25,677 nucleotides of DNA from a virus, in the IMG/VR virus record IMGVR_UViG_3300010149_000150, positions 1-25,677 of that record; one strand, 5' to 3'. The number at the start of each line of letters is the position of its first letter. Within the stretch, counting starts at the first letter, position 1. The notes under the pieces were generated by a model. That model searched no databases and was not told where the DNA came from. It saw nothing but the letters and a program-made list of their open reading frames with translations. Position numbers and translations under genes: made by a program. Shown here piece after piece: positions 694 through 4,854 of this stretch.

Positions 694-2424
694 ATGTACG
701 CAAATCAATTAATCAACGAGTCCGAGGTTCAAAAGACCTGGGGACCTATCATTGAGGAAGCTACTGGTATCACTGAAAAGTCTAAGTTATCTTGGATGTC
801 TAAGTACTGCCATTATCACAACCTTAATGAAAGTGTATATAATACTGTACACTTAAATCCAAATATGAATGTACCAGGTATGGATGCGGTAACTTTACCA
901 GGCAATCCTACTACAATGAATGCATTCTCTGGACAAACTGCTGGATCTGGTGACAGACCTTTTTCTTTGCTTCCACTTGCAATGCAAGTTGCTGCTCAGA
1001 CTGTAGGTTTAGACTTAGTACCTGTAGTACCAATGCAAGGGCCAATGGGAATCCTTACTTACCTAGACTTTGTCTATGGTGGTGGTTTAACTGACCAAGC
1101 AGGTGGTGTAAATGGAAATTCTGCTCCATTATTAATTAAAGTACCTGTAACATTAGGTTCTGGTGTTCCTGCTTTAGCAGTAAACGATGTAAACTATGTT
1201 GGTACTGGAACTGATGGTTCTTACGAGCTTACTTTTGTAGGTTCATCAAGAATTGATGGATATCCAATCTTCCGTGTAAGAGGTAAATCTACTGACGCAG
1301 CAGAAACAACTAATCCTTACAGACAAGGTGAAGAAGGTTATGAGCCAATTTATTCTGCTATTGTAGGTGGTGGTACCCCAACTGATATTTACTCTAATGA
1401 TTCATTAGCTGCATCTATTGGTACTTTTGGTGGAAGCCCTGAATATGTAAAAGCTTTAGAAGACCATATTACTGGTTTCTCAGGTAACGCATTTGAGGCT
1501 AATAACCCTGCTACTGGTGCATTAACAGCACAAGATATCAATGGTGTAGATCCATACCAAAGAGGTGTTGGAGAATCAACTCCAGATAACCTTTTAGGTC
1601 TTTCATTGTTCAACAAATCAGTTGCTGCTAAAACTTACCAAGTTGCTGCCGCTGTAACAAGAGAACAAGTTCAGGATTTAAAACAATTCGGAATCGACGC
1701 AGTTGCTCAAGTAGAAGCTGTATTGGTAAATGAGTTAACTCAATCTATCAACAAATACATCTTGGATAGAATCTTCAGAAATGGAGCTACTAACGCATCA
1801 AATGTATTTAACGTAGACGGACTAAACCTTTCTGCTGCATTTGCAACAGGTGCAGGTGCTGCGGTTAACATTAACTTAGGAGCTGATAACAGTTCTAATA
1901 CTAATGTTACTTTATCAACGCCTTTAACTGTTGTAGGATCAGGTGGAGAAACTCAAGGATCATTACAACGTAGATTGTATACTAAGATTCTTGCTGCTTC
2001 TAACCTAATCGCAACAAGAGGAAGAAGAGGACCTGCAACGTTTGCAGTATGTTCTGGAGAAATTGCTACGGCACTACAGGATATCGCAGGTTTCGTACCT
2101 TACCCACTATCAAATACAATCAACCAAGCTGGTGGATCTTTATATCCAATCGGTGCTTTGGCTGGTGTAACTATTTATGTTGATCCAAACATGGCTTGGA
2201 CTGACTACAGAGTTGCAGTAGGTAGAAAAGGTGATGGTAATTCTCCTGGTTTAGTATTCATGCCTTACTTAATGGCTGAATCTGTTGAAACAATCGCAGA
2301 AGGAACTATGGCTCCTAAAATCGCGGTTAAATCTAGATTCGCTTTAGTAGACGCTGGATTCCACCCAGAAACTATGTACTACACATTAGGATTTAACTTT
2401 GGTGCTGGTGTATCAATTATCTAA
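694..2424 (+). CDS. 23: Major capsid protein (T4 gp23 family)
   Basis: This 576-residue protein forms the head shell (T4 gp23 is 521). Typical gp23-family features are a short charged N-terminal region, a Gly/Pro-rich stretch with QTAGSGDRPFSLLPLA, then VPMQGPMG and LDFVYGGG, and a C-terminal half containing RRGPATFAVCSGEIATAL and a final FHPETMYYTLGFNFGAG segment. The N-terminus has two candidate prohead-protease sites, INE/S at residues 7-10 and LNE/S at 44-47. The second would remove about 46 residues, comparable to the 65-residue T4 propeptide. The start is the ATG after an A/T-only leader with no Shine-Dalgarno. A strong terminator follows. Codons are more optimised than in the neighbours (many GGT, GCT, AAC), as expected for the most abundant virion protein. 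Confidence 0.93.
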   Translation: MYANQLINESEVQKTWGPIIEEATGITEKSKLSWMSKYCHYHNLNESVYNTVHLNPNMNVPGMDAVTLPGNPTTMNAFSGQTAGSGDRPFSLLPLAMQVAAQTVGLDLVPVVPMQGPMGILTYLDFVYGGGLTDQAGGVNGNSAPLLIKVPVTLGSGVPALAVNDVNYVGTGTDGSYELTFVGSSRIDGYPIFRVRGKSTDAAETTNPYRQGEEGYEPIYSAIVGGGTPTDIYSNDSLAASIGTFGGSPEYVKALEDHITGFSGNAFEANNPATGALTAQDINGVDPYQRGVGESTPDNLLGLSLFNKSVAAKTYQVAAAVTREQVQDLKQFGIDAVAQVEAVLVNELTQSINKYILDRIFRNGATNASNVFNVDGLNLSAAFATGAGAAVNINLGADNSSNTNVTLSTPLTVVGSGGETQGSLQRRLYTKILAASNLIATRGRRGPATFAVCSGEIATALQDIAGFVPYPLSNTINQAGGSLYPIGALAGVTIYVDPNMAWTDYRVAVGRKGDGNSPGLVFMPYLMAESVETIAEGTMAPKIAVKSRFALVDAGFHPETMYYTLGFNFGAGVSII

Positions 2425-2519: not shown

Positions 2520-3494
2520 ATGAAAAGAGTATTATCATACAATGAATTCGTTAATGAATCTAAAGATATTAAGGAAGGAATTACAGATATTAAAGGTATT
2601 ATGAGTAATCCTATTAAATATAAGAAGATTAAAAATAATGCTAAGAAGTATCAAAAGACTAAAGTACAACAAGCATTAAATAATTTGGATTACGAAAAGA
2701 AGAAAGCTGCTAGTAAAGGTGATGGTAATTCAAATGTTCTTAAAGTTGCTAATGCTACAAAAAATGCTGCACTTAAAGATCAGTCAACTACAATAGCGGC
2801 AAGAATGAAAGATCTTGCTACAACAGATCCTCTTAAGAAGGTAGTTACTCTTGCAACAAGTAAAGCTAATTTAGCAGCAGCAGAAACGGCACTTAAAGCT
2901 GCTGATGCTGAAGAAACAAAAGCACTTAAGATTAGAATTAAAAGATTGGCAGGACAAGCGGCCGATGCACAAAAAGCACTTAAAGATTATGAATCTGATT
3001 CAAAGGAGGATACTGCAGATAATGCAACACCGTCTGCTGAAGATAATCAAAAGGCTGCCGCTGCAGAGAAAGCTAAATTAGATAAAGAAAAGGCTGAAAA
3101 GGAAAAGGAAGCAGCTAAAGCAAATAAAGAAGCAGATGCAAAAGATGAACCAAAAGTAGATGATAAAGCCGAAGATAAGATTGCTCAATTAGAAAATAGT
3201 ATTAAGTCACAAGATAAAATACAAGCTGATGCAACTAAGAATATAGAAAAATTAAAGGGCGAATTAAAAATAGCACAAGATAATAAAAATACAGGTAAAT
3301 CATCACAGGCTGAAGTGGATGCTATCTCAGCTAAAATACAACAAGAAACTGAAGATAAGAAGGCTGCTAAAGCTGAAGAAGATAAACTTAAAAAACAATT
3401 AAAACCAATAGCAGATAAACAATATGGAGAATCTCATACTCCTTTAGAAGAATCTGTTGCTGATAAGTTTAGAAGATTATCAGAAAAACTGTAA
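2520..3494 (+). CDS. Lys/Ala-rich coiled-coil protein, probable packaged internal head protein
   Basis: 324 residues, not recognised as a named family. The N-terminus MKRVLSYNEFVNES closely resembles the T4 internal protein III capsid-targeting peptide (MKTYQEFIAEA): MK, Tyr, Glu-Phe, a hydrophobic residue, x, Glu, then a small residue. Such peptides guide proteins into the prohead and are cut by the prohead protease after the Glu. Residues from about 40 to 300 are almost wholly Ala, Lys, Glu, Asp and Gln in heptad-like order, so an extended coiled coil is likely. The C-terminus has further protease-like sites (YGES, LEES, LSE). There is no signal peptide or membrane segment. It lies next to the capsid gene behind its own terminator-promoter pair. 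Ejected or DNA-condensing head protein is inference; a scaffold accessory protein is the alternative. Confidence 0.65.
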   Translation: MKRVLSYNEFVNESKDIKEGITDIKGIMSNPIKYKKIKNNAKKYQKTKVQQALNNLDYEKKKAASKGDGNSNVLKVANATKNAALKDQSTTIAARMKDLATTDPLKKVVTLATSKANLAAAETALKAADAEETKALKIRIKRLAGQAADAQKALKDYESDSKEDTADNATPSAEDNQKAAAAEKAKLDKEKAEKEKEAAKANKEADAKDEPKVDDKAEDKIAQLENSIKSQDKIQADATKNIEKLKGELKIAQDNKNTGKSSQAEVDAISAKIQQETEDKKAAKAEEDKLKKQLKPIADKQYGESHTPLEESVADKFRRLSEKL

Positions 3495-3508: not shown

Positions 3509-3574
3509 ATGAAATGTAATTGTAAAACCTGCGGTTGTGGTAAATCATGTGATTGTACCTGTTGTAACTGCTAA
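3509..3574 (+). CDS. Cysteine-rich micropeptide, metallothionein-like
   Basis: A 21-codon ORF in the 91-nt gap between two genes. It has nine cysteines at positions 3, 5, 8, 10, 14, 16, 18, 19 and 21, mostly in C-x-C and C-x-x-C spacing, with no aromatic residues. The rest is Lys, Asn, Thr, Gly, Ser and Asp. This is the composition of a small metallothionein or thiolate metal-cluster peptide. The ATG follows the preceding stop by 14 nt with an A/T leader (ctattaactATG) like the neighbours, and the next gene starts 11 nt after its stop, so it fits the operon. No function can be assigned. It could bind zinc or copper, supply metal to the zinc-ribbon protein downstream, or be an antimicrobial or signalling peptide. 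Translation is inferred, not shown. Confidence 0.6.
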   Translation: MKCNCKTCGCGKSCDCTCCNC

Positions 3575-3585
3575 AATAAATCATT

Positions 3586-4077
3586 ATGTATAAAGTTCGT
3601 AAAATAAACTTTGGTTGGTATAAAAGGAGGCATGGTATTCTATTAGAAAATCTGCCTCCTTTAAAGCAAAAACTTTTATTGGAACATAATCATATGAAAT
3701 GGTTAGATTCTGATATACAAGCATTTGAGATTATATTTAAGGTCGAAGATATGAATGAGCATGAAAAGAATCCTAATCGTATACTTTGGAATCCTTTTAG
3801 AGAAACATTTACAAACATTAAAGAATTAGAAAAAGACTCGGATCTCGTTGATTGGAATTGTGGAATATGTAAAGTTGAAATTAAATCAAGAATGGATTCT
3901 AAGAAGGTTGAAAATTTTGTTTGTGGTAAATGCGTGGAGGCCCATAACTCACGGAACAGCAGAGTTGATCAAAGAATAATAGATTCCTCTGTTAAATTTA
4001 TGAAGCACTGTAAATCCTTATTAAAAGGTGAACAAAGAGAGTTTATGACTTATGTAAGAAGATCATCAAAAGCGTAA
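3586..4077 (+). CDS. Unknown protein with a zinc-ribbon-like Cys motif
   Basis: 163 residues, family not recognised. A central C-G-I-C and, about 20 residues later, C-G-K-C form a four-cysteine zinc-ribbon pattern (about residues 92-117). The N-terminus is basic and aromatic (VRKINFGWYKRRHG) and is followed by a Leu-rich helix. The C-terminal 45 residues are basic and helical. Zinc ribbons of this kind occur in nucleic-acid-binding phage proteins, but nothing here identifies the target. It starts 11 nt after the cysteine-rich micropeptide and probably shares its transcript. Its last 12 nt overlap the end of the convergent minus-strand gene. Confidence 0.75.
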   Translation: MYKVRKINFGWYKRRHGILLENLPPLKQKLLLEHNHMKWLDSDIQAFEIIFKVEDMNEHEKNPNRILWNPFRETFTNIKELEKDSDLVDWNCGICKVEIKSRMDSKKVENFVCGKCVEAHNSRNSRVDQRIIDSSVKFMKHCKSLLKGEQREFMTYVRRSSKA

Positions 4078-4854
4078 AGCTTCTTCTATAGTTATTTTTT
4101 TAAATGCATTTAAATTACTAGATGGGCATGCATTTAAAATTTCTATTCCACTTCCATTAAGATCACGTTTAAGCAAATCAAACGCAGGTATAAATTGATC
4201 TTTATAAATATTAACACCTGTAGTATTTACTGGATAGCCATCGTGGAAGTGACTTTCCTTTCCTACATTACCCATATCATATCCTAATAAGATAATTCTT
4301 TTAGCACCTAAATGAATTGCTAAATTAATTGCAGCATAACCACTATTTCCACCATGAGCCACCGTATCTTTTTGTTTTGATAATCCAGTTTTACTACCTC
4401 GTTTTAAAAGTTTAATACTTTCGTTATGATCTTTATTAGGTGTAATAGTATACTTCAAACCACTATAAGACATTATTTCTTTTCTAAACCATCTGAATAC
4501 TCTAGAATCTGTCCAATATAAAGCTGTTGGGTTATTATAATATTTTATGGCTTTATTAATAGCTATAGTTTTTTTATTAGATAACAAATTCCACTTAAAT
4601 CCTTTTAGTGAAGGACCTCCACCAATAATGTAAACAGTTTCCCCAGCCCATAGCGGTGAAATAGTATGATATTTTAAATCTTTCTTTAATGGTGTCTTTA
4701 GTCTAACTGGATTAGGATTTACTTTAGTAGGTACTTTATGGTTAGAATTAGTGTTTATAATTTTACCTCTCTTTACATTAGTCTTAATGTTCTTAGAAGA
4801 TTCAGCTGGTACGGATATGTTTACCACTTTTCTAATTCGTCGGCCCTTTCTCAT
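4066..4854 (-). CDS. Rossmann-fold DUF115-like protein (glycosyltransferase- or MptE-like)
   Basis: 262 residues and the only convincing minus-strand gene here. After a basic, low-complexity N-terminal tail (about 1-60) comes VYIIGGGPSLKGF (residues 74-86), then NSGYAAINLAIHLGA (170-184), IILLGYDM (187-194) and HFHD (202-205). A GGGPS nucleotide-binding loop plus a later N-S-G-x-x-A-x-x-L-A-x-x-L-G-A helix and L-G-x-D strand is typical of phage and bacterial DUF115 proteins, which are related in fold to the pterin kinase MptE and to GT42 sialyltransferases. A role in modifying surface or virion glycans is possible but the substrate is unknown. The 3' end overlaps the plus-strand zinc-ribbon gene tail-to-tail by 12 nt. 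Its leader is back-to-back with that of gp44, only 75 nt apart. Confidence 0.75.
   Translation of the reverse strand: MRKGRRIRKVVNISVPAESSKNIKTNVKRGKIINTNSNHKVPTKVNPNPVRLKTPLKKDLKYHTISPLWAGETVYIIGGGPSLKGFKWNLLSNKKTIAINKAIKYYNNPTALYWTDSRVFRWFRKEIMSYSGLKYTITPNKDHNESIKLLKRGSKTGLSKQKDTVAHGGNSGYAAINLAIHLGAKRIILLGYDMGNVGKESHFHDGYPVNTTGVNIYKDQFIPAFDLLKRDLNGSGIEILNACPSSNLNAFKKITIEEALRF

Follow-up and report, generated by a model that had tools for sequence, protein, structure and literature searches.

A 21-codon gene with nine cysteine codons lies next to the head genes of a 25.7-kb virus fragment (25,677 nucleotides, called the window below), and it is a real gene under selection. We consider it probable that its product is a micro-metallothionein-like peptide, which would bind Zn(II) or Cu(I) through its thiols and which is common to these phages and to marine Bacteroidota. 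The evidence comes from the retention of the cysteine codons in relatives, from a single, rigid cysteine spacing across many viruses and from a homologue with a conserved place on bacterial chromosomes.

The nine-cysteine gene and its selection

The initial annotation had picked out a 21-residue, nine-cysteine reading frame between two phage genes, and the sequence bears it out (Table 1). Its cysteines occupy residues 3, 5, 8, 10, 14, 16, 18, 19 and 21, histidine is absent, CxC, CxxC and CC motifs are all present, and the 19-residue core reads C-x-C-x2-C-x-C-x3-C-x-C-x-C-C-x-C. The spacing and the leader do resemble those of the neighbouring genes, as had been claimed: the intergenic gaps are 14 nt on the 5' side and 11 nt on the 3' side, the leaders are A/T-rich, and all three genes are on the plus strand. 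Among named records, the capsid protein of the window is closest to that of the uncultured huge phage LR756500 (57.9% identity), followed by Prevotella Lak phages and Tenacibaculum phages, and because of these relatives, and of leaders without a clear ribosome-binding site, we infer that the hosts are Bacteroidota.

Table 1. Coordinates of the micropeptide gene, of its surroundings in the window and of elements at other loci
Feature	Position	Strand	Remarks
T4-like major capsid protein homologue	694..2424	+	similarity to capsids in named records
324-aa Lys/Ala-rich gene	2520..3494	+	directly 3' of major capsid gene; no family match; cluster c6
Nine-Cys micropeptide gene	3509..3574	+	21 aa, MKCNCKTCGCGKSCDCTCCNC, TAA stop; Cys-codon constraint and shuffle test; codons ATG AAA TGT AAT TGT AAA ACC TGC GGT TGT GGT AAA TCA TGT GAT TGT ACC TGT TGT AAC TGC TAA
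163-aa gene, two CxxC pairs	3586..4077	+	starts 11 nt past micropeptide stop
262-aa antisense gene	4066-4854	-	
91-aa cupin-fold protein gene	L382:12165-12437	+	cluster c2
Longer form of the peptide	L149:13230	-	MRNRQNCNCENCKCQKACNCMKCNCSKSCDCACCDC
Hairpin sites	L110:838, L123:3623, L140:3312, L428:8775	+	
	L344:3494	-	besides these five sites, 43 further distinct contexts

The 163-aa protein encoded just downstream had been described as a zinc ribbon. Its four cysteines form CxxC pairs at residues 92/95 and 113/116 that are invariant in 32/32 aligned homologues, but the predicted structure is of too low a confidence (mean pLDDT 44.5) to bear out the fold. No metal transporter, sensor or resistance gene was recognised adjoining the window copy of the micropeptide gene. 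Two further observations concern the same region. First, a 262-aa gene runs antisense amid co-oriented replication and head genes, and it matches the PHROG alpha-2,3-sialyltransferase (E 3e-40) and Pfam MptE-like (E 1.5e-8). Second, short motifs ending in NES (FVNES, LINES, SINES, LVNES) recur near N-termini and within head-region genes, namely the gene at 26-586, the capsid gene and the 324-aa gene; we take them to be possible prohead-protease sites.

So many cysteines are not reached by chance. When the whole window was shuffled 300 times with dinucleotides preserved, the largest number of cysteines in any ATG-started reading frame of 10-40 aa was six, attained in 10/300 shuffles, and a frame with seven was found in 0/300, as against nine in the window. 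Selection was then measured on a set unbiased for cysteine, since its loci were retrieved through the neighbouring 163-aa gene (the best 80 of 95 relatives); L068, which begins at that gene, was left out, leaving 79 informative loci. With at least 7/9 cysteines and a stop codon taken as presence, the micropeptide is present in 39/79 and absent from 40/79, and a looser scan (six of nine cysteines, or a frame of 12-70 aa with 22% cysteine) detected no decayed copies. The 39 copies comprise 18 distinct DNA versions, that of the window included; L001 and L002, which match the window exactly in the neighbouring gene, may belong to the window's own population.

Across the 18 versions, 161/162 cysteine codons are kept (136 TGT and 25 TGC, with TGA and TGG absent), and all 18 have the ATG start and the TAA stop. 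Over all pairs of versions, which are not independent of one another, pN/pS is 0.012 at the cysteine codons vs 0.84 at the remaining codons, and it is 1.10 and 0.78 in the +1 and +2 sense frames. The gene has thus come through the comparisons that the initial annotation had proposed, those of frame, of start and stop, and of synonymous and non-synonymous change. Its expectation that annotation would pass over so short a gene is also borne out, as this is a conserved coding gene to which no family library searched has a match. The sole exception among the cysteine codons is CAC in L051, by which Cys16 becomes His; such a ligand-for-ligand change would fit metal co-ordination.

Spread among phages and on bacterial chromosomes

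The first pattern scans returned mostly poly-Cys readings of repeats, and matches with more than nine cysteines in the 19-residue core were excluded, which left at least 26 loci in viruses and one in a bacterium. Together with the loci reached through the neighbour gene, the scans give at least 138 non-redundant loci, of which at least 137 are viral, and at least 114 distinct viral peptides; the pattern-scan totals count the matches listed and are no measure of abundance. Among the loci listed, the flanking gene families form 60 combinations, mostly with all three genes co-oriented. This variety, together with the copies on marine Flavobacteriales chromosomes described below, means that the gene is no element private to this phage. 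It also makes the suggested functional pairing with the 163-aa neighbour unlikely, given that most other carriers have other neighbours and that the 40 loci without the peptide keep the neighbour alone. A tblastn search of the phage collection with the 21 residues, of low power and with the low-complexity filter on, gave no match at all; the micropeptide is absent from the whole records of six named phage genomes, and no cultured phage carrier is known from this search.

The spacing of the cysteines is rigid. When the start, all nine cysteines and the stop were demanded but two of the gaps were allowed to vary (3-9 and 3-15 nt), 26/26 newly found loci among the matches listed had the canonical core, and the gaps were 6 and 9 nt in 75/75 distinct sequences fitting the free pattern; since this holds among the matches listed, rare spacing variants may exist. 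The 114 short forms (113 viral and one cellular) are also nearly devoid of hydrophobic residues (F/W/Y/L/I/V/M) after Met1: 46/114 have none, 57/114 have one and 11/114 have two or three. A longer form in L149 has 36 residues and 13 cysteines, as though part of a further unit stood before the usual one.

The micropeptide gene is accessory and dispensable, because 40/79 informative loci are without it, some of them with a deletion scar. Its presence and absence on the tree of the 163-aa gene require at least seven changes, four of which are forced by well-supported branches. In L053 and L065, just 5' of the 163-aa gene, the last part of the peptide gene survives together with the spacer behind it (AACTGTTAAATTAAAACTCTATG), while the rest is gone; this remnant is identical to the corresponding sequence in L050 and L051, and the two loci look like deletions.

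The cellular homologue came to light in a 61.5-kb contig of a Cryomorphaceae bacterium (L315), in which a 21-aa form, MDCNCKSCDCTKSCDCTCCNC, lies between chromosomal genes. In its genus, small-genome marine Flavobacteriales with genomes of 0.8-1.3 Mb, 18/25 genomes have matches, and the surroundings are the same in 8/8 compared genomes (nine loci, two of them from one genome): a membrane-exchanger-like gene on the opposite strand lies 5' and a small lipoprotein-like gene lies 3', both names being readings of the sequence alone. One of these loci (L504, in cell genome G402) has ATA where the eight others have ATG. Outside the genus the nine-cysteine peptide is rare. A family-level sample of 199 genomes contained true matches in G001, G416 (same genus) and G422, two of its five matches (G272 and G421) having been discounted as poly-TGT repeats ending in TGG. 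An order-wide search requiring an M-x-C start and a phylum search without that requirement each returned 1/395, namely the starting genome G001.

The chromosomal peptide has the length and the nine-cysteine spacing of the phage form, and differs from it in occupying one conserved chromosomal place, whereas the phage forms sit in phage operons. Cellular and phage cores are identical at up to 16/19 residues, with no core shared exactly (0/10). Transfer in either direction is possible, and host to phage would be the simpler reading because the chromosomal place is conserved. The finding agrees with what is expected of a viral auxiliary gene of cellular origin, whose homologue resides in the chromosomes of plausible hosts, as these Flavobacteriales would be.

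In other phages the gene has recurrent company. Directly 5' of the peptide, in 42/138 loci listed, lies the gene for a 91-aa single-domain protein of cupin fold (predicted structure with mean pLDDT 90.8; Foldseek best 2i45, E 9.7e-5; VIA-align 2 best 4e2g_A, Z 10.5, rmsd 2.1 over 82 residues), with relatives in the Flavobacterium phage immuto, the Methylophilales phage Melnitz and the Tenacibaculum phage pT24. The association is recurrent, yet no such gene is near the window-group copies, and we regard it as a lead only. A FAD-dependent dehydrogenase (Pfam Pyr_redox_2, E 1.4e-6) lies 3' of the peptide within about 200 nt in 28/138 and within 2 kb in 47/138 of the loci listed; in view of these shares, and as none was found near the peptide in the window's group, we rejected this flavoenzyme as a universal partner.

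Ahead of the dehydrogenase gene, many of these other phages have a 19-nt hairpin with a near-invariant loop, of the layout ACATATAG-NNN-GATTCATAGCC-N'N'N'-CG, in which the 9-nt loop is invariant except for one base. In 48/48 distinct occurrences, picked by the loop sequence alone, all five stem pairs are formed, at least three of them varying on both sides (covariation), and the hairpin lies 5' of a dehydrogenase gene at 96-440 nt, mostly at about 100. Conversely, where 480 nt ahead of a dehydrogenase gene were available, the hairpin is present in 46/48 cases, the exceptions being L176 and a Campylobacter phage. A T5 run follows 35/48 of the hairpin occurrences. The motif is absent from the window, and Rfam gave no match at the gathering score in the window and eight loci. 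The hairpin may be a new regulatory RNA.

A probable metal-thiolate peptide and its alternatives

The peptide combines high cysteine density, constraint focused on cysteine and the lack of an aromatic or bulky hydrophobic core, all of which are features of the metallothionein class. At 21 residues, family searches have low power: Pfam Metallothio_2 was hit by 4/30 members scanned, with a best E of 0.54 that is non-significant, and NCBIfam had no match among 30 family peptides. PHROGs had no match to the micropeptide, and a 30-member profile, itself very short, matched 0 PDB chains at E 10. We file the peptide as metallothionein-like, outside any named family.

Known systems offer partial likenesses. 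Animal and plant metallothioneins contain a nine-cysteine (M3Cys9) domain of about 30 residues, as part of a larger protein. It likewise has its nine cysteines in CxC and CxxC arrays, with no sequence match to the phage peptide in the Pfam and PDB searches. The bacterial SmtA, BmtA and PmtA are also cysteine-rich and metal-buffering. Metallothioneins of the SmtA/BmtA kind have about 55 residues and use histidine ligands, whereas the phage peptide has 21 residues, has one relative with one histidine among its core ligands and matches none of them in Pfam or NCBIfam. The bacterial proteins have a zinc-finger fold, as described in PMC10612145, and BmtA of marine Synechococcus banks zinc, according to PMC9337993. 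The shortest metallothioneins reported at the time of classification, according to PMC4755600, are those of fungal family 8, with 26 residues and 7 cysteines in the pattern X2-[CXC]-X5-[CXC]-X3-[CXC]-X2-C-X3. The family 8 peptides of Neurospora crassa and Agaricus bisporus are likewise very short, with CxC arrays in a single cluster-sized unit; the phage peptide, to which no homology was shown, differs in having 9 cysteines in 21 residues, arranged as CxC-x2-CxC-x3-CxC-x-CC-x-C with a CC pair. Metallothioneins are described in the same source as enlarging through unit repetition (PMC4755600), and the longer L149 form would parallel this. Literature searches, with little coverage of subscription journals, turned up no account of a metallothionein encoded by a phage; PMC3974807 names a metallothionein in a table of bacterial genome genes.

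What has to be explained is the combination of fixed thiols, free other residues, a Cys-to-His exchange, no hydrophobic core and rigid spacing, and these are what a metal-thiolate cluster would be expected to need. One could instead suppose that the cysteines serve as reducing equivalents, in oxidant scavenging or a disulfide relay, and that no stable metal cluster is formed. Nine thiols in 21 residues and the flavoenzyme close to many copies are consistent with such a thiol redox buffer or disulfide-exchange peptide, which we nevertheless consider unlikely: a scavenger has no need of rigid spacing, replacing Cys16 by His retains a metal ligand at the cost of a thiol, the hairpin and a terminator-like stretch separate the peptide gene from the close flavoenzyme gene in most cases, and the window's group has no flavoenzyme within 6 kb. 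Phages often deploy small proteins against host targets, and the peptide could act as an effector that takes zinc from, or gives it to, one partner, be it the host RNA polymerase, a defence nuclease or the adjoining 163-aa protein, whose invariant CxxC pairs would suit that role. We find this quite unlikely, as that neighbour persists alone in the loci without the peptide, as the near-freedom of the non-cysteine residues is unlike a binding interface, and as the gene also resides on bacterial chromosomes.

A RiPP precursor, or a peptide otherwise modified or secreted, might be equally short and rich in cysteine, but it is very improbable here, since there is no leader peptide, the first cysteine being at residue 2-4 in 114/114 short forms, and since a maturation enzyme is absent among the recurrent neighbours examined. 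Finally, that the reading frame is no gene, having arisen by chance or being conserved as an element of the RNA or DNA, would account for its extreme shortness and the lack of a database match but is scarcely credible in view of the shuffles, of cysteine codons alternating between T and C only at their third base while start and stop are kept, and of the RNA comparisons, in which RNAalifold found no conserved structure within the peptide gene (zero shared pairs predicted across 88 distinct sequences) and the mean MFE z was -0.7 (40 sampled, 8/40 below -2).

A possible role in infection

The metal-binding reading can be put as a working model. In it the peptide would be translated and bind metal; its 19-residue core would be a near-pure thiol scaffold, folding only around metal. 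Because known nine-cysteine metallothionein domains hold M3Cys9 clusters, and Zn3Cys9 among them (as described in PMC10612145), the load expected by analogy would be about three divalent ions, Zn(II) or Cd(II), or else several Cu(I). The T4-like group and other marine phages bear the gene as a small accessory operon member, the window copy being placed in the head-gene region. These phages most likely took it from Bacteroidota hosts, or share it with them, because the gene is conserved on the chromosomes of small-genome marine Flavobacteriales. During infection the peptide might provide extra Zn or Cu buffering, for example by holding metal released in the breakdown of host proteins, which would thereby be rendered harmless or supplied to the zinc proteins of the phage. 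That the window copy adjoins head genes suggests late expression, at the time of host-protein recycling.

Taken together, we tentatively put forward a new micro-metallothionein family, with fewer residues and a higher share of cysteine than the described short fungal forms, which could be conserved in small-genome marine Flavobacteriales and have spread among marine phages as a Zn/Cu buffer during infection; we hold this fuller account to be possible rather than probable. The nine-cysteine unit is minimal and has a single spacing across more than 100 natural sequences, and for chemists it would be a metal-cluster peptide of minimal size, taken from nature and backed by a large alignment. Its absence from all protein-family libraries searched also illustrates that a strongly selected 21-codon gene can escape annotation. 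If our account is true, a gene for metal buffering would here be carried by a virus, something for which we found no earlier report, and marine microbiologists would gain a connection, open to testing, of trace metals with small-genome Bacteroidota and the phages of these bacteria.
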